64,000 bases of DNA from Antedon mediterranea (Eukaryota; Echinodermata; Crinoidea; Comatulida; Antedonidae), in contig NC_092680.1 in the NCBI RefSeq assembly GCF_964355755.1, forward strand, positions 7,789,001-7,853,000. The letters are read 5' to 3'. Below, piece after piece: positions 3,607 to 64,000 of this stretch. Under the pieces are notes generated by a model. That model was not told the DNA's origin and made no database searches. It saw nothing but the letters and a program-made list of their open reading frames with translations. The stretch's first letter is position 1; each line of letters starts with the position of its first letter. Position numbers and translations under genes: made by a program.

Positions 3607-4259
3607 TTATATTATTGTGCAACGAATTCCTTTCTATGCTAATTAAATCAAATCAATTGTTACACTAATGCAATAGTATAAATAGTTGGAAATGGTGAAC
3701 CAACAAGGTATATAAGAAATATAAATAACAACTTAATAAGATTACCCTCAATATAATTGAAAATAAATAATTATTATTATATATGTTGCAGGCTAAATGG
3801 AGTGTTAATATATGTTTTCCTAGAGGAGACATTTACTTTTAGGGAAATGTTGATAGAATAAACCATCTTAACCCAAAGAATGATCAGTATAATATAAACA
3901 TTTTTTTATACCTCAATCATGGTAAAAATAGTAATAATAATGATGAAAGCTTAGATATAATATTTAAAATATTAATTGTTTAAGTTGCTAATGTTTCTCA
4001 TATAACATGTATTTATACGCTATGTTTTAATAATGTGATGTATTATTTCACGTTAATTATGTACGGTATACCATATATTGCCACCATCAATTGCCCTATA
4101 GATACGCTGGTTGTATGATAATTGACACGCAGTGCATTTACAATGTTTTTTTATCTAATACCCGATTCAAACGTTCGCAAACCTTACAAAATGTAAACAA
4201 AAAGTGTTACATTCGGACGAAAGTGTGAAAGCGTGTTACATCGATGTAAAATCTGTAAA
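3607..4259. other. probable 3' UTR and AT-rich spacer
   Basis: AT-rich sequence after the channel stop codon, with several AATAAA-like strings. Nothing else recognised. Confidence 0.4.
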
Positions 4260-24187: not shown

Positions 24188-25044
24188 TTAAAATATATTA
24201 TTAATTATTTAAATTCATGTATACATATATATATAAATCTCGCACTCGATACATACACGAACGGCGGTATCATACGGTCGATAACGATCATGATGATGAT
24301 AATGATAGGGAGAAATATTTATTAAGAAAGACTTGTACTTCTATTCTGATATAATATGAAATAAAAATATATTTGTACACCGAGGACGAAAATACAATAT
24401 TAATTTAGTAAAGCGGGCTGTAATAATAAATGAAATGATGGTATACGTAGTTAGTTAGATAATAGTCGCATTTAGTGCAGTGCAAATGGATTTGGTACAA
24501 CAGAGAAAGTGACTTATTTTAAGTTGGGATAAAAGTCGATTGTTACATCTTTATCTTCGTTGGTATTATGTGATACAGCAATGATTAAATCCTATAGAAA
24601 TATATACTTTTTCTTTTCAGACAATGGTGGACAGGTTAGAGCTGGTGCAAATAACTGGCCATTACGCGGTTGGAAAGGTACACTGTGGGAAGGAGGTGTC
24701 CATGCGGTGGGCTTTGTTCACAGTCCCCTTCTTCCAAAACAAGTTCAAGGAACTATCAACAATGAACTAATACACGTCAGTGATTGGTTCCCAACCATTG
24801 TAGAGGGATTGGCTCAAGGTGATACTAAAGGTACTAAGCCTCTTGATGGATACAATGTATGGCCGTGCATTAGGTAAGTGAAAGGCTAGGAAATGAACTA
24901 CAGTAAAACAATAAACTATTGTAAATAACTAGGTATACGAAATATCCAGATTAAATTGAATAGTCTTTTCTTATCGAGTTGCCTACAGCAGCATTCCTAC
25001 TTCCAAAACATATCATTTTTGACATCGTTCTATATAAGTCCCAC

Positions 25045-25265
25045 CTCTGTGAATACTACCTCCGTGAATGCTACCTACGTGAATGCTACCTCCGTGAATG
25101 CTACCTCCGTGAATGCTACCTCCGTGAATGCTACCTCCGTGAATGCTACCTCCGTGAATGCTACCTCCGTGAATGCTACCTCCGTGAATGCTACCTACGT
25201 GAATGCTACCTACGTGAATGCTACCTACGTGAATGCTACCTACGTGAATGCTACCTACGTGAATA
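25045..25265. repeat. 15-bp minisatellite, about 15 units
   Basis: The unit GTGAATGCTACCTCC (variant CCTAC) is repeated without indels, with the two variants in blocks. Because 15 is a multiple of three, several frames stay open across it, but it lies in intron 5 of sulfatase B and is not coding. Confidence 0.95.
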
Positions 25266-25596
25266 TAATAATAATTTACACGTATTCGTACTGAATGTTT
25301 TTATTTTGTATACGATGCTACGTATATTATGTTTTCATATGACTGAAACTGAAATAACAATTGTACACAAACGTGTTTATTTCAAAACAGAAACCTTTTT
25401 TGTGTTTAGTAAAACTGACTATCATCCATGAGGGTAAACAGTGGCAAAACAGCTCCTTTGATGTTCGAATAAATGCCGCTCTTAGGTCAGGTGATTGGAA
25501 GATTCTTACTGGTGTTAAAGGTAAATTCTACCTCTTATTAATGTTACTTAACTATATTAATCTGTCTACTTATCAAACTAGTTTGTGCCTATTACT

Positions 25597-37022: not shown

Positions 37023-39173
37023 TTACCTCCGCCAAGGAGGTATATGTAATCGGTAGCGTGTGTTTGTTTGTTACTTGGCCAAATTGAAAAATTGGCCAAG
37101 TATGTTGATCTGTTTGGTTTGTGTGTTTGTTTGTTTGTTTGTCATCACTCTAGCGCTCACAGTTTTGATTCGAATGACTCTAAATTACTACCATACATGT
37201 CACCTGGTGCAAGGACGACACTGTCCAATTTTGGTTAAAATCTGGACCACGGTCCCAATTCGGGACCACTTTTAAAAATTATTTTCAGACCTGCTAGTGT
37301 TAAAAGATAGGATAGAATTATCAAAAGCCGGTGAGCAGTCTTTAATTAACAAGTAAACTAAAATTGCATTTTCTCGAGAACTACTTCTCCACAAAACTTC
37401 ATTTTTGTACAAGAGGCAACAGTTATAATTTGTGATTTGTGATTTTAAAACATAAGTTGATTTAATATACAGGTTTTTTGATGCGAATAGTTTAAAAAAC
37501 CTATTTCTTTTCAAATTCACCCGTGTGTTTTTCGCGTTGCTGTTTTATTGTTAGTCGACTGAAGCTATTGTTAATTGAAAGGCTTGTTACATAACCTTTA
37601 CACCAAACTCGTATACACATGATTGTAGTGGATTTAGCCTAAAAATCACACAGCATAAGACACACACTTTTGGTAAAAATCGGGTCAAGGTCATTAGGCC
37701 AATTTTGATTTGGCCAAGTATCGCGCTATGCGCGAAGGCTAGTTTGTTTGTTACTTGGCAAAGCACGATAGCGCCTACAGTTTTCAAGTTATCGTTCTGA
37801 ATTTTTGGGTGTAGATAGGTATATATTGTCAGACCATGCCTATTGAAAATCAACAAAATTGGTTTATTAATAACTTCACAAATAACAAAAATGATATTAT
37901 TTTCAGACCGGCTAGTGTTAAAAGATAGGAGACAATTTTCAAAAGCCGGCGAGCAGTCTTAAAGTAACAAGTGTACTGAAATTGCATTTTCTCGAGAACT
38001 ACTTGTCCAAAAAACATCATTTTTGTACAAGAAGCAAGAGTTATAAATTGTGCTTTTTAATTTTAAAACAAAAGTTGATTCAGTGTACCAGCTTTTTTAT
38101 ACGAGTAGTTTAAAAAAACCTATTTCTTTTCAAATTCACCCGTTTGTTTTTGGCGTTGCTGTTCTATTGTTATTCAAATTAAACTATTGTAAGTTGATAA
38201 GTAGTTTTGTTAGCACCAGCGTGTGTCCTTCCTTATTTCATCAGGTATATACTTACAGAACATGCCTATTGATTTTCAGGTAAATTGATATATTACTACA
38301 TGGGTTAAGGCAGAGGCGCGGCAAATCGGTACAGCTTCAAGACACTCCTCGATCATTATTCTGGTCAATCTTGATTTTAGATAGGTCATTGTTGCAATGC
38401 CGGAGTTGTTTGTATCAAAAACTTATTTAAACAAATTATTAACCCCAGCAGGATTTCAACAATGTAAAGCTAATACCTAAAGCAAAAAAAATGTATCTTT
38501 CAACATGCTCCGAGTCAGTGGATATATTTTGCCAAGTATTTCACTCAGTTTCTGAGTGCTTTCATTTGTTTGTTTGTTAGCAGGATTACTCAAAAGGTAA
38601 TTACAAGATCTTTGCCAAAATGAATATACGGATAGATATGTGGTCAAGGACCATTCCATTAAATTTTGGGATCATTTGGGACCATGGTCCCAATTCTGGA
38701 CCACTTTTTCGGTATACTGTTCAGACCTGCTAGTGTTAAAAGATAGGACAGAATTTTACAAAAGCCGGCGAGCAGTCTTAAAGTAACAAATAAACTAAAA
38801 TTGCATTTTCTCGAGAACTACTTGTCCAAAAAACTTCATTTTTGTACAAGAGGCAAGAGGTATAATTTGTGATTTGTAAATTTTTTTTTGATGCGAGTAG
38901 TTTAAAAAACCTATTTCTTTTCAAATTCACTCGTTTGATTTTCACGTTGCTGTTCTATTGTTAGTCAACTGAAGCTATTGTTAATTGAAAGGCTTGTTAC
39001 ATAACCATTACACCAAACTCGCATACACATGCTTGTAGTGAAATTAGCCTAAATCACAAACAGCATTAAGACACAGACATATATATATATATATTTCTTT
39101 TTTACCAAAGAAATCTTATGTAGGAGAATTTTACAGTAGGCGCAGGTATGCACTCTCGGAGTGTCTTTCTAGT
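37023..39173. repeat. composite repeat block with three copies of a ~300-bp unit
   Basis: It is bounded by the CCTCCGCCAAGGAGG start and the CTCGGAGTGTCTTTCTAG end of the family seen at 9009. Inside, a unit running from GACCTGCTAGTGTTAAAAGA through CATTTTCTCGAGAACTACTT to CAAATTCACCCGT occurs three times (about 37285-37530, 37908-38145, 38725-38930). A palindrome CTTGGCC..GGCCAAG lies at 37074-37100. The first part recurs at 58194 onwards. Confidence 0.65.
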
Positions 39174-39725
39174 TCATAATGTGACGTCACTTTATGAGGG
39201 GGAGCTTTCGACATAAAAGTTCGATACTTGCTCAAGCGTGAGGGTGTGCTATTTAGTATTACGCAGTTAGGTAGATTATTGGATATTTGTTTTCAAGCGA
39301 ATGATTATATGCCATTCTTGCTTACTGGAATTACGTCACGTTGGCCGGTAGCATTATTTTGTTTTCCTATGAGTTTAAAACAGAACTCATGAATATAAGT
39401 TCATGAGAAAATTATGAAATAAATTAGAACATTATAATGCATCCCGGTAAAGGGACGAGATGCCTCTTCCGATGACATTTCACATTACGCACTAGAAAAT
39501 CAATGTCACTCTAATGTACTCCGTTAATCCGGCTTTAAAATTAGCATATCGATTTTAAGATTATTTCACAAAATGATATTCAGACCAGCTGGTTTAGTGA
39601 ACACGCATTTTTTGTTCGTCCTTCTTTGTGTCTAAGTTGCAGAAGAACAAGACCTTTTCGCAGTGATTCTTCTTGTATGAAACGTTCATTCCCATTTATC
39701 TTCTACACTTTTATTTGATTTAAGC
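39174..39725. other. upstream region of sulfatase D
   Basis: The GATACTTGCTCAAGC stretch near 39221 matches one near 27418 upstream of the foldback element and gene C, so it is probably shared 5' flank of the C/D paralogues. No promoter motif can be named with confidence. Confidence 0.4.
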
Positions 39726-41109
39726 ATGATTAATAGTGTTATAGCATTGCTTGCTATTGCTCTGCCAGTAGTGGTAGTAGTAGGCCTACTTTCTCGACAG
39801 ATTAAAGTTACAGTTATTAGGCGGAATGTTGAAGAAGTTCCTGTTGTTAAGCCGAACATCGTGTTGATTGTAGCAGACGATTATGGTTTTCATGATATAG
39901 GTTACCACGATTCAAATATTAAAACACCGACTTTAGACAAATTGGCAGGAGAAGGTGTTAAGCTTGAAAAATATTATGTTCAGCCGATATGTACTCCAAC
40001 AAGAAGTCAGCTGATGACTGGTAGATACCAGGTTAGTCCTTTCAGGTTATCTTCCCTCATGGGTGTCCCAAATGAGGGATTTCTATACCATATTAACATT
40101 TTTATTCCAAATGGTTTATTCACCGTTGAACCATTTTCACACCATGTAGACCTTATTTGTTTTTTTCTGTGGTAAACTGAAATTGTATGATTCATACCTG
40201 CTACGTTATTCATAAAGCAGCTCAAATAAATGTTAGTGTGAACAAACTACAGTCTATTAATAGCTGGTTCCGACATTATCAAACGTTATTATGTTATTAC
40301 CTTAAAATTTCTTTTTAAAAATGTTGTCTCCATGATAAATCAATCTTGTTTTTCTCGGTCTTAGAAATTTTAGAATTTTGAGTATAGGAAATACAGTTTG
40401 TATGTGTTTTTTCTATACGATTTTCAATGTGAAGAAGTTAGTTTATGTACCATAGCTCTTTGCAAAAGTATTCCTTGAGATGTATTTTAGGTTTGTTGAT
40501 TTTAATTATCAGATACACACGGGCTTACAGCACGAAATCATAAGGCCATCCGTTCCAAATTGTCTACCTCTCGATGAAGTTACTCTACCACAGAAACTAA
40601 AAGAATTTGGTTATGCAACGCATATGGTTGGTAAATGGCATCTTGGATTTTACAAGGAAGCATGTGTTCCAATTAATCGAGGCTTTGATTCATTTTTTGG
40701 TTAGTAGATTTTTAAGGGTCTATCACTTGTTCCGGCAAATCAAATCGAACGTCAATGTTTCGTTTTCACGACGCTCCACGCTATATGCGCGTAGGTCAGA
40801 TCAATCGATATGTCGTCGGTCGTCGCCTGGACCATCAAACTTGTGTCGAGGCTTTAATTTATTTATAATATTTTCATTTCTTGTAAAGGTCACTATGTTG
40901 GACATGAGGACTACTACACCCATATCAGAGAGGAAGGATATGATTTCTGGGATAACTTCAAAGTAGCGACAGAATACAATAACACTTACTCTACCGTTTT
41001 ATTTGCTACGAAAGCCAAAGCAGTTATCAAGGCTCATAAAAAAAGTAAAAAGGTAGTTACTTTTATTTTAATAATCAAGCAATTGAGCCCGCGAAATTGA
41101 CATTCCATT

Positions 41110-41521: not shown

Positions 41522-42379
41522 ATGGCGAGACCTTCTCCGGGAAGAGCTACACCGATCAAAATGGCCGCTAGAATGGATGAGGCACCACCTGTGGCGGCTG
41601 CTGTAAGTTTAAAATTGCCGCCATTTTGGCCGAATGACCCACTTATTTGGTTTGCGCAAGTGGAGGCTCAGTTTGTTACCAGAGGAATTACGGCTGAGGA
41701 AACAAAGTATTCGTATATAATTGCTTCTTTGCCGCCTAATATCGCACAGGAGGTTCGGGATTTATTGCTAAGCCCTCCATACCAGAGACCATATACCCAT
41801 TTGAAATCGGAATTGGTTAAAAGGACATCCGTGTCGGAGCAAAAGCGTCTTCATCAGTTGTTAACGGAAGAATTAGGTGATCGCAAGCCTAGTCAGTTAC
41901 TACGCAAGATGTACCAATTGCTGGGGGATCGTGATTTAGAGACATCCATCCTGAAACAGTTGTTTGTGCAAAGATTGCCTACTAATGTTCAATTGATATT
42001 AGCGTCCACCCGTGAGGATATGGACCTTTCAGATCTGGCAGCGTTGGCCGATAAAATTTTGAAAATTTTGGAAGTTTCTCCACCACCACCTACTATTGCC
42101 ACGACAATTAAGGATACGGGTGCACGCGCAACGTCAGATGAATTAAGAGAATTGAGAGCTGAGGTTAGTAAGTTGACCAGCCTCGTTTCTTCCTTGGCGA
42201 AACAAGTCAGAGGCAGAAGCCGTAGTAAACAACGTGAAAGCCGAAAACGCTCGCCCTCTGCTACATCTAATGATGGTTTATGCTGGTATCATCATCGATA
42301 TGGTAACAAGGCACATAAATGTAATTCACCATGCTCTTTTTCCTCACAGAAGGCGGGAAACGACCAAGCCAGCGACTAG
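41522..42379 (+). CDS. gag: retrotransposon Gag
   Basis: About 285 residues from the ATG at 41522 (the frame is open 12 bases further upstream without ATG). The N-terminal half has the [19 protein letters not shown] capsid-type start common to Mag-like Gag proteins. A basic Arg/Ser-rich stretch precedes a C-terminal cysteine-histidine cluster ([15 protein letters not shown]) that acts as a nucleic-acid-binding zinc knuckle. The last 49 bases overlap pol in the -1 frame, so Pol is expected to be made by -1 ribosomal frameshifting. No lesion seen. Confidence 0.85.
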
Positions 42380-45300
42380 AGACGGCGACAGCTGCTGGCG
42401 TTGGTGAAGGTAGTCGTCTATTTTTTATTTCTGATCGTACTTCGGGACTTAGATTCTTAGTTGACACTGGAGCGGAGGTTAGCGTGTTACCTCCATCAAT
42501 AACAGACAAGTTGCACCGAAAAACTGACTTTGTATTGCAAGCAGTAAACAAATCTACAATATCTACTTATAGGGAGCGTTCCTTAACAGTTGATTTTGGA
42601 TTTCGACGCACGTATAGGTGGATATTTACTGTTGCTGATGTGCCTAATGCGATTATTGGGGCCGATTTTTTACGACGTTTTGGTTTAATTGTGGACTTAA
42701 AAAATCGCCAACTTTTCGATGCTACTACTAGTATCAGTGTCAAGGGAATAGAATGTACCCTAGCATCACTTAGTCCGGTCTTTCCGACCCCAAAAGTAAA
42801 TCCTCGTTTTCAGGAAATATTAAACAAATATAAAACGATTACCAAACCATGTTTTCGTAATGGAAGCGTGAAACATAATGTTACACATCAGATAAATACA
42901 AATGGGTTGCCAGTTTGTGCCAGACCTCGCCGATTATCTTCTGAGAAATTGAAAATTGCACGGGCTGAATTTGATCATATGTTACAATTAGGAATTATAC
43001 GGCCCTCAGATAGTAACTGGTCGTCGCCGCTACACATGGTGCCTAAAGGAACAACAGGTGATTGGAGGCCATGTGGGGACTACCGAGCTTTAAATAATGT
43101 GACTGTTCCAGATATGTACCCCATCCCTCACATTCATGACTTTACCGCGACTCTCTCGGGTTGCAAGATTTTTTCTAAGATAGATTTGGTACGTGCATAT
43201 CATCAAATACCCGTCGATCCTAAAGACATTTCAAAAACCGCTATTACTACGCCGTTTGGCATGTTCGAGTTCTTAAGAATGCCATTTGGTCTTCGAAATG
43301 CGGCACAGTCATTTCAGCGTTTTATTGACCAGGTGTTGCGGGGTATGAATTTCGTGTATGCTTACATTGATGACTTACTTATTGCCAGCATGGATACTGC
43401 TGAACATGAATTGCATCTTCAGGCACTTTTTAAACGTCTCGATGAATTTGGTATCATTGTTAATCCGTCCAAGTGTGTATGGGGTGTGTCTTCACTACAA
43501 TTTTTAGGTCATCAAATTAACGAGTTTGGGATACAGCCATTGCGTTCCAAGGTTGAGGCGATTGAACAGTTTCCAGTACCAGATACTGTGCGTAAATTAC
43601 GTGAGTTTCTGGGATTAATTAATTTCTACAGACGGTTTATACCTAGATGTTCGGATTTGATTCATCCATTAACTGATTTACTTGTCGGTAAACCTAAAAC
43701 GGCGATTGAACTATCTCCGACGGAAATTGAATCGTTCAACAAGGTCAAGTATGCACTCGTCGAATCAACTCTTCTAGAACATCCACATCCTGACGCTGCA
43801 TTGTGTTTAATGGTAGATGCGTCCAATTGCGCTGTAGGTGGTGTGTTGCAACAAATGGTAGCAGGGATTTGGCATCCACTTGCATTTTTTTCCCGACGTC
43901 TAAATCCGGTGGAAAGGAGATATAGTACTTTTGGACGGGAATTACTAGCTACCTATCTTGCAGTTAAGCATTTTCGCCACGTTCTAGAAGCTAGAACATT
44001 TTATATCTTAACTGACCATAAACCTTTAACACACGCATTACGTTCCAGCGCAGATCGATATTCGCCGCGAGAGATACGTCACTTAGACTACGTCTCACAG
44101 TTTACCACGGACATTCGACACGTCAAGGGTAGCGAGAATACCGTAGCAGACGCACTGTCACGTATGGACTTGAATGCAGTGTCAGCTTCATCGGAGCTTT
44201 CTATTGATTATGACGTCATGGCTAGGCACCAGCAAAAAGATGCGGAGTTGCTCGAACATCAGCATAAGTCTGTTTTCAAGTTGAGAGACGTACCGATAGC
44301 GACTAGCGGCGGTACTATTGTATGCGATGTCACCACTGGTAATCATAGACCATTCGTGCCCAAAGGTATGCGTAGGTTAGTGTTTGACTCTTTGCATTCA
44401 CTTTCTCATCCAGGGATTCGAGCTTCACTAAAATTAATCGCTTCACGGTATGTTTGGCCTGGTATGAACAGTGATGTGCGGACATGGGCTAAATGTTGTT
44501 TAAAATGCCAGAAGAATAAGGTTCATCGCCACACTGTGACACCATTAGGTACGTTTGCGACGCCCGACATAAGATTCGACCACGTCCACATAGACTTGGT
44601 AGGACCTCTACCTGTATCGGATGGTTATACTTACCTACTTACATGTATCGATCGCTTTACAAGATGGCCAGAGGCCATATCAATCACCAATATTACCGCT
44701 GAAACTGTAGCCAAAGCGTTTGTCACTGTTTGGGTATCCAGATTCGGTGCGCCATCCACCATCACTACAGACCGTGGTCGTCAGTTCGAATCGGCACTAT
44801 TCACCGCCCTATCTAACATGTTGGGCACAAAACGCATTTGAACAACATCTTACCATCCTATGTCAAATGGATTAGTTGAACGTTTTCACCGCCAATTAAA
44901 GGTTTCGCTTAAGGCTCAAGATGATCCTCAGAAGTGGAGTGAAACTTTACCTTTAGTTCTTCTGGGTCTCCGGACAGCGGTCAAAGTTGATTTAGGCTGT
45001 TCTTCATCGGAACTGGTGTATGGAGCAACCCTGAAACTTCCAGGGCAGTTTGTCGCGCCTACTGATATCGCCTCACATGAGCCTGCGAATTACGTACATA
45101 GATTGCAAAGACACATGCAGAATATTCGACCAGTGCCAACACGAGCGAATCAACGCACCGCACAAATCCACGACGATTTGCGTGAATGTACTCACGTGTT
45201 TGTTCGTTGCGATAGCGTAAAGAAACCTATTCAGTCTCCTTACAATGGGCCATTTAAAGTTTTAAACAGAACTGACAAATACTTTGTTTTGAGCATCGCA

Positions 45301-45513
45301 GGTAAACATGAAACTGTTAGTTTGGACAGACTAAAAGTCGCCTATGTAAATAATGGTAAAGCTATTAACAACTTTCCAGAATCGTCAAGGCAACCGGAAG
45401 CAGGGCTTTCCCCAACCGCAAGTGCTATTCCAGTCGCACCTCCGCCACGGCAAACGCGTAGCGGACGACATGTACACTGGCCACGTAAGCTTGCAGATTA
45501 TGATTGCGGTTGA
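42331..45513 (+). pseudogene. pol: retrotransposon Pol (protease, RT, RNase H, integrase) with one internal stop
   Basis: Domains in order: aspartic protease ([12 protein letters not shown]); reverse transcriptase with YIDD; RNase H ([22 protein letters not shown]); an HHCC-type integrase zinc region (LSHPGIR..CLKCQK); and the integrase core with the first two catalytic aspartates ([18 protein letters not shown]). A TGA at 44839-44841 interrupts the frame between the second aspartate and the expected catalytic glutamate. The same frame is open again from 44842 to 45513, ending with a GPFKVL motif like the GPY/F module of Ty3/gypsy integrases. A single transition could explain the stop. As it stands, this copy should not produce a full integrase. 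Confidence 0.88.
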
Positions 45514-50147: not shown

Positions 50148-51275
50148 GAATCGGCACTATTCACCGCCCTATCTAACATGTTGGGCACAAAACGCATTTG
50201 AACAACATCTTACCATCCTATGTCAAATGGATTAGTTGAACGTTTTCACCGCCAATTAAAGGTTTCGCTTAAGGCTCAAGATGATCCTCAGAAGTGGAGT
50301 GAAACTTTACCTTTAGTTCTTCTGGGTCTCCGGACAGCGGTCAAAGTTGATTTAGGCTGTTCTTCATCGGAACTGGTGTATGGAGCAACCCTGAAACTTC
50401 CAGGGCAGTTTGTCGCGCCTACTGATATCGCCTCACATGAGCCTGCGAATTACGTACATAGATTGCAAAGACACATGCAGAATATTCGACCAGTGCCAAC
50501 ACGAGCGAATCAACGCACCGCACAAATCCACGACGATTTGCGTGAATGTACTCACGTGTTTGTTCGTTGCGATAGCGTAAAGAAACCTATTCAGTCTCCT
50601 TACAATGGGCCATTTAAAGTTTTAAACAGAACTGACAAATACTTTGTTTTGAGCATCGCAGGTAAACATGAAACTGTTAGTTTGGACAGACTAAAAGTCG
50701 CCTATGTAAATAATGGTAAAGCTATTAACAACTTTCCAGAATCGTCAAGGCAACCGGAAGCAGGGCTTTCCCCAACCGCAAGTGCTATTCCAGTCGCACC
50801 TCCGCCACGGCAAACGCGTAGCGGACGACATGTACACTGGCCACGTAAGCTTGCAGATTATGATTGCGGTTGAAGAAATTCTGTTAGTTTATTGTGCTGG
50901 AAGTTTTATACTAGAATCATTTTTTTTTATTCATCGCTCGCTAACATTTCATTTGCGATCTAGAGGGGAGCTGATGTAGAGGCAATTTGCATATGTGTTA
51001 GCAGGTGTAACGAACGGCATGCAAACCTTTTTATTCTTTGTCTCTCTCTCTCAACTACCGACCGTCGAACAAGCAGGACGTATTTATTTTACTTACCGTT
51101 GTTTGTTAACACAAGGAACTTTGCGTATCCTGTACATGTACAGAAGAAACCATTATTATTGGAATATATTATGTGTATATAATTACGGAGCCAAGTATAA
51201 GAAGTTACTAATGATATTTGAACCCAATGCATGCTCTCACAACACAGTATAGTGGGTAAGTTGGATCTCACTAAA
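50148..51275 (+). mobile_element. truncated LTR retrotransposon copy (integrase 3' part and LTR)
   Basis: It carries the TGA and the C-terminal integrase frame (50220-50873), identical to 44860-45513, then the LTR at 50975-51275. It arose by the tandem duplication, not by transposition: there is no 5' LTR and no target duplication at its left end. Confidence 0.9.
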
Positions 51276-59463: not shown

Positions 59464-59946
59464 AAAAATTGGCCAAGTATGTTGATCTGTTTGGTTTGTG
59501 TGTTTGTTTGTTTGTTTGTCATCACTCTAGCGCTCACAGTTTTGATTCGAATGACTCCAAATTACTACCATACATGTCACCTGGTGCAAGGACAACACTG
59601 TCCAATTTTGGTTAAAATCTGGACCACGGTCCCAATTCGGGACCACTTTTAAAAATTATTTTCAGACCTGCTAGTGTTAAAAGATAGGACAGAATTATCA
59701 AAAGCCGGTGAGCAGTCTTTAATTAACAAGTAAACTAAAATTGCATTTTCTCGAGAACTACTTCTCCACAAAACTTCATTTTTGTACAAGAGGCAACAGT
59801 TATAATTTGTGATTTGTAATTTTAAAACATAAGTTGATTTAATATACAGGTTTTTTGATGCGAATAGTTTAAAAAACCTATTTCTTTTCAAATTCACCCG
59901 TGTGTTTTTCGCGTTGCTGTTTTATTGTTAGTCGACTGAAGCTATT
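59464..59946. repeat. continuation of the repeat block paralogous to 37087-37569
   Basis: It matches the first ~300-bp unit of the block behind gene C, including CTCGAGAACTACTTCTCCAC and GTCGACTGAAGCTATT. It ends at the insertion point of the palindromic element. Confidence 0.7.
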
Positions 59947-60387
59947 TAGACTAGGCTATGAATGAGGTAGGTGCCACCCGGAGAGGTAGAAATTCTCATA
60001 TGACTTTTCTAGACCAGTTTTTTCTGGGGAATCCAAATATATTGGGTAAACGGGCTGTAACCTGAGAACTTTCGCGTGAGGGCGCTTTTTTCAAAATGGC
60101 TGCCAGTTACAGTAGACTATGATATCTTGGCAACCACTGGTCATAGAGAGTTGATTTTGGTGTCAAATTGTTCGGAATGTATGTTCCTATTTGATGTAAT
60201 AGAACATTTTGTCAGAAAATGGCCGGAAATACCTCTATTGACCGTTGACCCAATATTTAACAGATATCATATCTTCGTAACTACTCGACACAGAAAGTTG
60301 TAATTGGTGTCAAACTCTCCAGAATATAGATGTTTATATTCAAACTAATAGAACATTATCTGTAAAAATGACCGGAAATAACGTTAC

Positions 60388-60400
60388 TGACCTTTGACCC
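60388..60400 (-). promoter_or_regulatory. DR1-type nuclear-receptor motif, left arm of the palindromic element
   Basis: TGACCTTTGACCC on the + strand is GGGTCA-A-AGGTCA in reverse, two AGGTCA-like half-sites separated by one base. A weaker site (TGACCGTTGACCC) lies 149 bases upstream at 60239. Binding is untested. Confidence 0.5.
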
Positions 60401-60616
60401 AAAATGCAAGACATTTCTCCCATCTGATCACGTTAATCTTGTCAATTAATTCATTTTGTGCCAATTGGAGGTTGACATTCTCATATTATTTTCTGGACCA
60501 GTTTTTCATGTGCAATCCGAATATATGAGATAAATAAGCCATAACAAGGCCAAGAATTTAATTCTCTTTTACTACATAAATGCTTCCCTTTAGTGTTTCA
60601 GACTGTATGTCGTGTA

Positions 60617-62080
60617 TTAATCTTCAAGATCGCTCACATCACTGCAATCTGAAAAGTCTTCATATTCATTATGTGTAAACAGTTCCTGGACATCAGTGGG
60701 AATCACTGTCTCAATCCATTTAGGCTCCATTTGTTCGTTCCATCCATTGTGTGTACTGTTGTTGACAAAATCATTGACGTCTGCTGATTGCCATTCTTTA
60801 GTAATGAAGTTTGCTCTAAGTATATGAAACTCAAGGGTCTGCTGACATAGTGGCAGTAATGATATATCTGTAATCTTGTTGTGTCTGGAAAACTTTCTGT
60901 TGAAGGTATCATATCTTGCTTGATTTACACTTTTCCCCTTCACTCCATACAATAGTGAAACATACTCTTCAAATTCCTCATACAACTCTTTTGATGGAAC
61001 ATCTGACACTCCAAGGTTGCAGAATGCGTCAACAAATTTTGCTTTTGATTCCAGAAGCTTCCAGCAGGTACGTTTTCCTTTCCGAAAGAAAGCGGAGTTA
61101 TAAGCGTTACATGTGAAAGCATGGAATCCAATAAGGGATGATTTCTGCGCTTTTGTTAAATCAATGTCACTCAATTTCAGTACCTTTCGGTATTTCCCAG
61201 TGTTTGTATCAATAATTACCCTCTGCCCATCATCTATGATGAGATAGTGCAATGACTGGAATATCAATGTCTCCAGAATGGGAACGAATTATTGCTACGC
61301 CTTGATTGTTATTTGTTAAAGCATGCTTTGCATGCAGGATGACTTTTGTGTAGGCTTCTTCTTCCGGCTACTATTAAGCTCCGGAACCAATACAACATCT
61401 CAGTTAGTAACGTAGATGCATTCTTTGTACGATGAAAAGTAGGTAACATCAATCCTCATATCTGTTAGAATGCTTTCTTTCTTTGACACTAGTACACAGC
61501 GAATAAGCTCAATCAATCTGGTCTTGTTCTCGCCGTTGGCAAGGAAATTGTTGAAATCACGGCCAACTTTGATATTGTTGAGCTTACAATTACTTTTGGT
61601 GCAATACCGCGTATGTTTCTCTCAACAGACTTAATGCTTTTTGGCAGGTATGCATCGGTAACAATATCAACACGCTTGTATCCTTTAGGGATGCTGTTGA
61701 AAACCTTTGCTACAAGATCCTCGTACGTATCAGGGTAAGATGTAAATGTTCTGATTAATGCCATCAAGTCAACAACATAGGCAATGACAGTAGCCTTTGC
61801 TGGCAGTGCCCGACCAGGATCTATAACATCTGTTGAACTTTCGATGAGAATTTCCATTAGGACACTTTTCTGAGTTGTTCGTCTTGTCCCATCTGCATTA
61901 GCCAGGCTTAGCGGGACAGGGGTAAGTGGATACTCAAAGGCTTTCTTAAAGTCAATTATTCTACCATGCTTTGTTGAGGTGGCAAGAAGCTTTCCTAAAA
62001 CATCCCGATTAGCTTATATTACTTTTACTTTCCCATTTGCCTTGATTTCTAGTTTCTTCCCACTATTCGAAAATAAAGTG
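60617..62080 (-). pseudogene. PIN/XPG-like nuclease-family protein gene, left-arm copy (degraded)
   Basis: Read leftwards, the N-terminal part is in the loop and inner arm: a frame with one stop at about 62016, containing ANRDVLGKLLAT, EYPLTPVPLSLANADG and PGRALPAKATV, then DLMALIRTF, RVDIVTDAYLP and SIKSVERNIRG. After frame breaks between 61513 and 61267, the C-terminal part (60617-61267, 216 residues) runs through SLIGFHAFT.. and ends in an acidic DCSDVSDLED. This order matches a protein family I recall from fish, cnidarian and other animal genomes, which is related to PIN/FEN1-like nucleases and often linked to mobile DNA. In this copy the acidic EEADT motif is altered and the DID segment is missing. 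It is the only copy that retains the N-terminal region. Confidence 0.65.
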
Positions 62081-63119
62081 AGATGATGTTATGGATCCTG
62101 GTCGAGCACTGCGAGAAACAGACGCGGTATTGCACCAAAAGTAATTGTAAGCTCAAAAATATCAAAGTTGCCCCGTGATTTCAACAATTTCCTTGCCAAC
62201 GGCGAGAACAAGACCAGATTGATTGAGCTTATTCGCTGTGTACTAGTGTCAAAGAAAGAAAGCATTCTAACAGATATGAGGAGTGATGTTATTTACTTTT
62301 CATCGTACAAAGAATGCATCTACGTTACTAAACTGAGATGTTGTATTGGTTCCGGAGCTTAATAGTAGCCAAGAAGAAGCCGACACGAAAGTCATCCTGC
62401 ATGCAAAGCATGCTTTAACAAATAACAATCAAGGCGTAGCAATAATTTGTTCCCATTCTGGAGACATTGACATTCCAGTCATTTCACTATCTCATTTCAT
62501 AGATGATGGGCAGAGGGTAATTATTGATACAAACACTGGGAAATACCGAAATGTACTGAAATTGAGTGACATTGATTTAACAAAAGCGCAGAAATCATCC
62601 CTTATTGGATTCCATGCTTTCACAGGTAACGAGTATAACTCCGCTTTCGTTCGGAAAGGAAAACGTACCTGCTGGAAGCTTCTGGAATCAAAAGCAACAT
62701 TTGTTGACACATTCTGCAACCTTGGAGTGTCAGATGTTCCATCAAAAGAGTTGTATGAGGAACTTGAAGAGTATGTTTCACCATTGTATGGAGTGAAGGG
62801 GAAAAGTGTAAATCAAGCAAGATATGATATCTTCAACAGAAAGTTTTCCAGACACAACAAGATTACAGATATATCATTACTGCCACTATGTCAGCAGACC
62901 CTTGAGTTTCATATACTTAGAGCAAACTTCATTACTAAAGAATGGCAATCAGCAGACGTCAATGATTTTGTCAACAACAGTACACACAATGGATGGAACG
63001 AACAAATGGAGCCTAAATGGATTGAGACAGTGATGCCCACTGATGTCCAGGAACTGTTTACACATAATGAATATGAAGACTTTTCAGATTGCAGTGATGT
63101 GAGCGATCTTGAAGATTAA
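62068..63119 (+). pseudogene. PIN/XPG-like nuclease-family protein gene, right-arm copy
   Basis: The main open frame (62346-63119, 257 residues) lacks a proper start: its first codon is TTG inside the family's VPELxSSQEEADTK motif. It has E10-E11-A-D13 and D40-I-D42 (HSGDIDIPVISL), the spacing of acidic metal-binding residues in PIN/XPG-I folds, then SLIGFHAFTGNEYNSAF (86-101), similar to the helix-hairpin-helix region of FEN1-like nucleases. The acidic tail is DCSDVSDLED. Upstream, 62168-62362 is the preceding segment (NNFLANGENKTRLIELIRC) in another frame, so a frameshift lies near 62346. Around 62103 about 210 coding bases are deleted. It would not give a complete protein, though the nuclease-like half is intact. 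The function is inferred from motifs only. Confidence 0.65.
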
Positions 63120-63207
63120 TACACGACATACAGACTGAAACACTAAAGGGAAAATGAATTAATTGACAGGAGTAACGTGATCAGATAGGAGAAATGTCTT
63201 GCATTTT

Positions 63208-63220
63208 GGGTCAAAGGTCA
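63208..63220 (+). promoter_or_regulatory. DR1-type nuclear-receptor motif, right arm, first repeat
   Basis: GGGTCAAAGGTCA is a perfect DR1 arrangement, in the inner of two ~149-bp repeats. Confidence 0.5.
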
Positions 63221-63356
63221 GTAACGTTATTTCCGGTCATTTTTACAGATAATGTTCTATTAGTTTGAATATAAACATCTATATTCTGGAGAGTTTGACA
63301 CCAATTACAACTTTCTGTGTCTAGTAGTTACGGAGATATGATATCTGTTAGATATT

Positions 63357-63369
63357 GGGTCAAAGGTCA
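63357..63369 (+). promoter_or_regulatory. DR1-type nuclear-receptor motif, right arm, second repeat
   Basis: GGGTCAAAGGTCA again, exactly 149 bases after the first. Confidence 0.5.
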
Positions 63370-63666
63370 ATAGAGGTATTTCCGGCCGTTTTCTGACAAA
63401 ATGTTCTATTACATCAAATAGGAACATGTACATTCCAAACAATTTGACACCAAAATCAACTCTCTATGACCAGTGGTTGCCAAGATATCATAGTCTATTG
63501 TAACTGGCAGCCATTTTGAAAAAAGCGCCCTCACGCAAAAGTTCTCAGGTTACAGCCCGTTTACCCAATATATTTGGATTCCCCAGAAAAAACTGGTCTA
63601 GAAAAGTTATATGAGAATTTCTACCTCTCCGGGTGGCACCTACCTCATTCATAGCCTAGTCTAATT

Positions 63667-63830
63667 GTTAATTGAAAGGCTTTACACCAAACTCGTATAC
63701 ACATGATTGTAGTGGATTTAGCCTAAATCACACAGCATAAGACACACACACTTTTGGTAAAAATCGGGTCAAGGTCATTAGGCCAATTTTGATTTGGCCA
63801 AGTATCGCGCTATGCGCGAAGGCTAGTTTG
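63667..63830. repeat. repeat block paralogous to 37570-37746
   Basis: GTTAATTGAAAGGC through GGGTCAAGGTCATTAGGCCA to GCGCTATGCGCGAAGGCTAG continues the gene C-side sequence beyond the palindromic insertion, with small deletions. Confidence 0.7.
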
Positions 63831-64000
63831 TTACTTGGCAAAAAAGAATTTTGCCAAGTATAGTATTCACTTTGTTACTTGGCAAAAAAGAATTTTGCCA
63901 AGTATAGTATTCACTTTGTTTGTATGTTTGTATGTTTGTTACTTGGCCAAATTGAAAATTGGCCAAGTATGTTGATCTGTTTGTTTGTTTGTTTGTTTGT
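63831..64000. repeat. TTACTTGGCAAAA.. tandem units and TTGGCCAA palindrome, running off the window
   Basis: A ~44-bp hairpin unit (TTACTTGGCAAAAAAGAATT..TTGCCAAGTATAGTATTCAC) occurs twice in tandem. It is followed by CTTGGCCAAATTGAAAATTG GCCAAG and a TTTG microsatellite, the same sequence that starts inside the blocks at 37071 and 58241. Confidence 0.7.

Follow-up and report, generated by a model that had tools for sequence, protein, structure and literature searches.

Introduction

AcademX transposons make target-site duplications (TSDs) of 3-4 bp and encode a nuclease (PMC10045372), and the Academ elements of bivalves average 5.6 kb in length (PMC10294476). Very long inverted arms are found in Galileo, a P-superfamily transposon of Drosophila, where they have recruited the end of the transposase open reading frame (ORF; 69 bp, and more than 500 bp in some copies); the authors of that study called this recruitment unique to Galileo, and invoked gap repair and template switching in a family whose arm structure is variable (PMC4168063). 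In maize, Mu killer, a derivative of MuDR in which part of mudrA is duplicated in inverted orientation and one terminal repeat occurs twice, is proposed to silence MuDR via hairpin RNA (PMC3440606).

Here we compare with these systems an element from the crinoid Antedon mediterranea. It lies in a stretch of 64,000 nucleotides, the window (C11:7789001-7853000 in a 354-Mb, 18-contig genome), in which a first-pass annotation had described a palindromic transposon of non-standard layout. The latter judgement has to be narrowed, since the end of a transposase ORF is known from the long foldback arms of Galileo (PMC4168063), and a similar layout is reported for Mu killer (PMC3440606). Like Galileo, the window element has variable and very long inverted arms that hold the end of a transposase ORF; it differs in that Galileo belongs to the P superfamily, with duplications of 7-8 bp, whereas the window family makes duplications of 3 bp, holds about 1 kb of the gene in both arms, and consists for the most part of a fixed palindromic form. 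Mu killer shares with the window element a partial inverted duplication of the transposase gene and two copies of one end, but it is a silencer in a plant, whereas the arrangement in the window is itself mobile and multicopy, and is found in an animal. By analogy, the Mu killer layout seems to recur in the window element, in another superfamily and in a mobile, multicopy form. Taken together, the window element very probably derives, as a non-autonomous foldback, from a cut-and-paste transposon of the Academ/AcademX type; it would have originated in gap repair and been moved in trans.

Results

Structure of the element and its empty sites

The two inverted arms of the element (Table 1) are about 97% identical, and it is indeed, as had been annotated, inverted along nearly its whole length. 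The arms pair in blocks 40-656 nt long that are 94-100% complementary, which excludes a chance origin. Because a patch of about 28 bp in the 485-bp centre is itself an inverted copy (93%) of sequence nearby, truly single-copy DNA in the centre amounts to about 250 bp, close to the ~220 bp first reported. Subterminal direct repeats with a spacing of 149 bp occur in both arms, and the window copy is a variant that lacks about 125 bp of its right arm.

The fuller termini, TAGACTAGGCTATG and CATAGCCTAGTCTA, are flanked by ATT on each side, in agreement with the ends and the duplication first proposed. Two uninserted paralogous sites within the window, one of them already noted in the first-pass annotation, both read GAAGCTATTGTTAATTG with a single ATT; the first, matched when the flanks of the element were joined and compared with the window, reads GAAGC-TATT-GTTAATTG. 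The paralogous flanks of these sites suggest a duplicated gene region.

Several other features were observed in the window. A sulfatase-like exon, read from its translation, lies at 39681-40175, close to the empty sites, and two perfect 44-bp tandem copies at 63827-63914 each hold the near-palindrome TTGGCAAAAAAGAATTTTGCCAA. Gypsy-type pol ORFs (read from translation) occupy 42325-45513 and 50202-50873; in this region a 223-aa ORF for the integrase end is present in two identical copies, 5360 bp apart, which suggests that an LTR element was duplicated in tandem or by nesting. An open frame of about 13 tandem ECYLR units at 24964-25431 is a coding-frame minisatellite.

Table 1 Coordinates, in the window, of the foldback element, its parts and its empty sites (position E1 of the element numbering is 59947)
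Feature	Position	Strand	Remark
Left target-site duplication, ATT	59944..59946	.	Single ATT at empty sites
Whole foldback element, 3717 bp	59947..63663	.	Ends TAGACTAGG..CCTAGTCTA
Left arm, the parent's putative long arm: element 3′ end and gene 3′ part, gene on minus strand	59947..61624	.	Alignment to other copies
Right arm, inverted copy of left arm, ~125 bp short of typical copies	62110..63663	.	
Left-arm segment unpaired in right arm of window copy; in both arms of typical 3846-bp copies	60458..60583	.	
Centre between arms; single-copy part carries the gene's upstream XPG-like half, on minus strand	61625..62109	.	
Templated patch at inverted junction	62085..62112	.	Inverted copy (26/28) of 61803-61830
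Degenerate C-terminal half of transposon protein	60617..62013	-	166-aa ORF 61513-62013, frame changes, 223-aa ORF 60617-61288
260-aa open C-terminal remnant, right arm	62337..63119	+	EEADT kept, GNDY changed to GNEY
Two subterminal direct repeats, 149-bp spaced, left arm	60181..60417	.	
Subterminal repeats as in left arm, right arm	63191..63488	.	
Right target-site duplication, ATT	63664..63666	.	
Paralogous empty site (TATT)	37566..37569	.	Inside 96% identical copy of flanks (37087-37762)
Second paralogous empty site, more diverged (82%)	38679..39079	.	

Copies across the genome and recent movement

A search with the whole element returned 292 matching pieces genome-wide. With the terminal 25 bases as query, 82 ends were found in the 354-Mb genome, and none with a reversed control; by our pairing, these ends delimit 35 complete elements, with a typical length of 3846 bp. 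Identical 3-bp flanks border 19 of the 20 complete copies read, with no fixed target (ATT, ATA, GTG, ATG, TTG, GTA, TAT, AAT, AAA, TTA, AGT, AAG and ACA were recorded). As in other foldback elements, the inverted arms make up most of the element and move as a unit.

Two copies (L004 and L005) are identical along all 3846 bp but have different duplications (GTG versus ATG), and have therefore moved very recently. The ~125-bp right-arm deletion is common to the window copy and the copies at C11:5728620 and C5:11993314, and since these three differ pairwise at 9-10 sites in 3.7 kb, the asymmetric form kept jumping. A tree built from the ~1-kb stretches of gene in the arms groups all left arms in one clade and all right arms in another (support 99/97) over independent insertions, from which it follows that the palindrome of the window lineage formed once and then spread as a unit; its arms were not homogenised after the palindrome had formed. 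Two truncated foldback copies on C4 (L024, C4:4057016-4058143, and C4:4077744-4078871) have the same boundaries and lie 20.7 kb apart, as a segmental duplication.

State of the coding remnant

A nuclease-like coding region reads outwards on both strands, as had been reported, in a single open frame on the plus strand and in two remnants on the minus strand (Table 1), the latter with the motifs VVDLMALIR and VTDAYLPKSIKSVERNIRG. The downstream half of the XPG-like domain is present in both arms, and the upstream half on the minus strand only (61567-61794, which aligns to the relative L058), consistent with the single-copy part that the first-pass annotation had placed there. The window proteins themselves gave no convincing match in Pfam or in a structure library.

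One predicted catalytic acid is gone from each of the two arm lineages: EEADT has become EEAYT in left arms, and GNDY has become GNEY in right arms. The right-arm remnant is open in most copies, and many left arms carry frameshifts. A simple count of the unique codon changes among copies gave 5 synonymous and 30 nonsynonymous changes in right arms (dN/dS about 1.6) and 6 synonymous and 27 nonsynonymous changes in left arms (dN/dS about 1.2). The coding remnant thus evolves neutrally, with no sign of purifying selection in the arms, and, the gene being dead by its lost acids, frameshifts and neutral substitutions, the element does not owe its own movement to this nuclease.

Full-length relatives encode a DUF6589 protein

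A genome-wide protein search recovered relatives at 27-53% identity, several of which lie in long uninterrupted ORFs (1247, 1360, 1524 and 1555 aa). The long proteins align with one another, with identities of 27-40% to the first; it is to the C-termini of the 1247-1555-aa ORFs that the window protein aligns, at about 33-37% identity. DUF6589 (PF20231) was matched by three of the five long proteins, in their middle part (best member, E 7.9e-8); this domain is not mentioned in the literature searched, and we take it to be linked to Academ and the region to be, presumably, a DDE transposase. By alignment, the "nuclease gene" is the C-terminal XPG/FEN-like part of a 1.2-1.6-kaa DUF6589 transposon protein. 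We accordingly abandoned the reading of an independent nuclease gene, and that of a passenger, since in the relatives the same domain is fused behind DUF6589 in the transposon's own long protein, and the remnant is neutral.

Among the relatives, L028/L040 is intact, with a length of 7.0-7.3 kb, a protein of 1555 aa and the ends TAGTCTGGGAG.. and TAGTCTGGGAGCCC; its family has three end pairs 6.9-7.3 kb apart, with an AAA duplication around the copy on C11. A third family, that of the 1360-aa protein, ends in ..CACAGTCTA and ..GAGCCCACAGTCTA, and TAG(A/T)CT termini are common to all three families. Sequence near the relatives L025 and L031 is similar, at about 65-74%, to the window element's subterminal repeats. 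The intact 7.3-kb relative (L028:5566-6570 and L042) carries 289-bp tandem subterminal repeats at both ends, which are like in kind to the 149-bp repeats of the window element. One contig filed as a Planctomycetota metagenome-assembled genome (MAG) encodes a 1295-aa DUF6589 plus XPG-like protein (L058:1-3888), probably as a eukaryotic contamination of that MAG.

The C-terminal domain

Seven complete domains were aligned; the positions invariant among them include the D of IIDGMALLQ, the D and the K-x-x-E-R-x-x-R of VxDxYPxxSIKxxERxxR, and the E-A-D of HEEADT, together with the motifs D-T-D and G-C/S-D with K-G-K. Seven invariant acidic residues follow in order (D12, D56, E159, D161, D184, D186 and D242 of the A6 alignment), plus K64, R68 and R71, which we equate with residues of FEN1, their order presumably being that in which FEN1 and EXO1 carry their metal ligands and basic residues. 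The domain thus resembles the XPG/FEN1/EXO1 nucleases in its invariant D, D, K, E-R, E-A-D, D-T-D and G-C-D motifs and in their FEN-like order, but the significance of the match is marginal, and the window arms each lack one of the predicted catalytic acids.

EXO1 was the best structure-library match of the seven-domain profile (E 0.07, short of significance), through two collinear stretches that lie exactly on the K-E-R and GCDY motifs; with a broader profile EXO1 was matched at E 0.24, with an unrelated ribosomal protein ranked above it. The domain had no match to Pfam XPG_I, no match by hhalign to three host XPG_I exons (FEN1/EXO1/XPG), and no significant match in NCBIfam. An AlphaFold2 model built from L058 plus window fragments was poor (pLDDT 44). 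Of the PIN/XPG-type protein first suggested, the FEN1/EXO1 catalytic residues were recovered in their order, and statistical proof was not; on its motifs, with profile matches short of significance, the C-terminal domain is likely XPG-like.

Search for the parent

The first-pass annotation had looked to the ends of the element, as a genome-wide query, for longer copies that carry this gene plus a DDE transposase. The query yielded paired ends, and no pair was found to enclose a complete gene, although gaps could hide such a copy. The N-terminal half of the protein is absent from every copy examined in the window family, as is a DDE transposase domain from the window element and from every copy read with its ends. 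The earlier remark that no transposase is visible thus holds for the element itself, and reflects a truncation, in which the DUF6589 half is missing, and not an absence by design.

A 12.5-kb copy on C1 (C1:369518-382059, TSD ACA/ACA), considered as an autonomous parent, was rejected as a foldback copy with nested LINE inserts; it has a shorter left arm, and its gene extends 336 bp further upstream, encoding 232 aa. A search with these 232 aa found no close copy (>45% identity) beyond foldback copies and fragments. Another candidate, L033, was rejected as a source of the parental 5′ end because it is cut at E104 by another element; the element joined there to the first 104 bp of the family (about position 3940) is possibly Harbinger-like, from its sequence. 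No parent was found in viral contigs, and prokaryote genomes yielded a single contig only, L058. Parentage is drawn from the sequences of relatives that are 33-53% identical, none of which has the ends of the window element.

Discussion

We propose that the parent encoded a single long protein, with DUF6589 in its N-terminal part and an XPG/FEN-like nuclease region in its C-terminal part, and that an inverted rearrangement put an inverted copy of the 3′ half of this transposon in the place of its 5′ half; both termini of the derivative would then stem from one and the same end of the parent, and each arm would hold the end of the gene. The junction would have come from gap repair after excision, in which the end under resynthesis was copied from the 3′ end and not from the 5′ end, by way of the shared inverted termini, followed by a template switch and sealing by end joining. 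Long, shared and repeat-rich ends, with their 149-bp subterminal repeats, would let a repairing end anneal to the wrong terminus. Since recent, identical copies lack the transposase half, mobilisation would be in trans, by a transposase that recognises the ends of the element; this enzyme may be missing from the assembly, in an unassembled or polymorphic parent, or may come from a related family with TAG(A/T)CT ends.

Three types of inner junction were found among the copies. In type a (the C1 copy and L018), the gene continues to its furthest point and is followed by an arm of 984-987 bp; in type b, that of the window, the gene is cut at about 62082 and followed by the 28-bp inverted patch and an arm of ~1.68 kb; in type c (L016 and L036, and probably also L023 and L035), the gene is cut ~220 bp earlier than in type a and followed by an arm of ~398 bp. 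A possible though rather unlikely alternative to gap repair is that the palindrome arose through alternative transposition, hybrid ends on sister chromatids or inverted duplication at replication, and that the different inner lengths are later central deletions of one palindrome. Type c could be such a deletion of type a, and central rearrangements are common among the copies (L009, L014, L017 and L020). Compared with the C1 and L018 copies, however, the window type is longer in its short arm and shorter in its gene arm, and neither can be derived from the other by deletion alone, which implies at least two inversion or extension events; the window-type junction also carries the templated patch. 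From the junctions alone, we infer that templated patches and unequal copying lengths are the expected trace of interrupted gap repair with template switching.

As to the superfamily, the window element shares 3-bp duplications (in 19/20 copies, within the 3-4 bp of AcademX) and terminal inverted repeats with AcademX, and its relatives encode a nuclease-like domain, recognised by motif match with a non-significant profile, that is fused with a presumed transposase in one ORF. It differs from AcademX in being non-autonomous: the DUF6589/DDE half is missing, and one end is present twice, as is the 3′ part of the gene; having no Academ DDE domain, it is a derivative and not an autonomous member. 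Membership in an Academ-type group, set by the described features of AcademX and by DUF6589 and not by reference sequences, is a strong lead, and Academ, the nearest idea of the first-pass annotation, was well chosen. That the parent instead belonged to another superfamily with 3-bp duplications, such as PIF/Harbinger or an unnamed DUF6589 group, seems improbable: PIF/Harbinger also makes 3-bp duplications (PMC2213677), but no Pfam match of the relatives points to Harbinger, and AcademX combines duplications of 3-4 bp with a nuclease (PMC10045372). The window element is best filed as a foldback that derives from an Academ-type transposon with DUF6589 and an XPG-like region.

We give very little credence to the idea that the PIN/XPG nuclease is the working gene of a new long-armed transposon that transposes by the nuclease alone. 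The openness of the 260-aa right-arm frame in many copies, and recent movement among copies none of which, as read with the window element's ends, has a DDE domain, would fit it; against it, this frame lacks the upstream XPG half and has GNEY for GNDY, left arms have EAYT, many copies have stops or frameshifts, purifying selection is not seen, and in the relatives this domain is fused to a DUF6589 region that precedes it. Finally, while long inverted repeats are difficult to assemble, an inverted misjoin, the artefact that the first-pass annotation had warned of, is rejected as virtually inconceivable, given at least 19 copies at different sites with their own TSDs and the left- and right-specific differences that the copies have in common.

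By analogy with Mu killer, transcribed copies of the foldback derivative might form a hairpin RNA of ~1.5 kb directed at the nuclease half of the parental transposase message, and so silence and help to eliminate the autonomous parent, a speculation to which we attach a low probability; if true, a self-silencing derivative would still spread by using a related transposase. More generally, the window family extends a Galileo-type trait to an unrelated type of transposon, with about 1 kb of the gene in both arms, and is a case in which, within one genome, a palindromic form has almost completely taken the place of its parent. With 35 complete copies, several junction types and empty sites, it offers material for the study of how foldback elements form, and a testable case of self-silencing by hairpin RNA.
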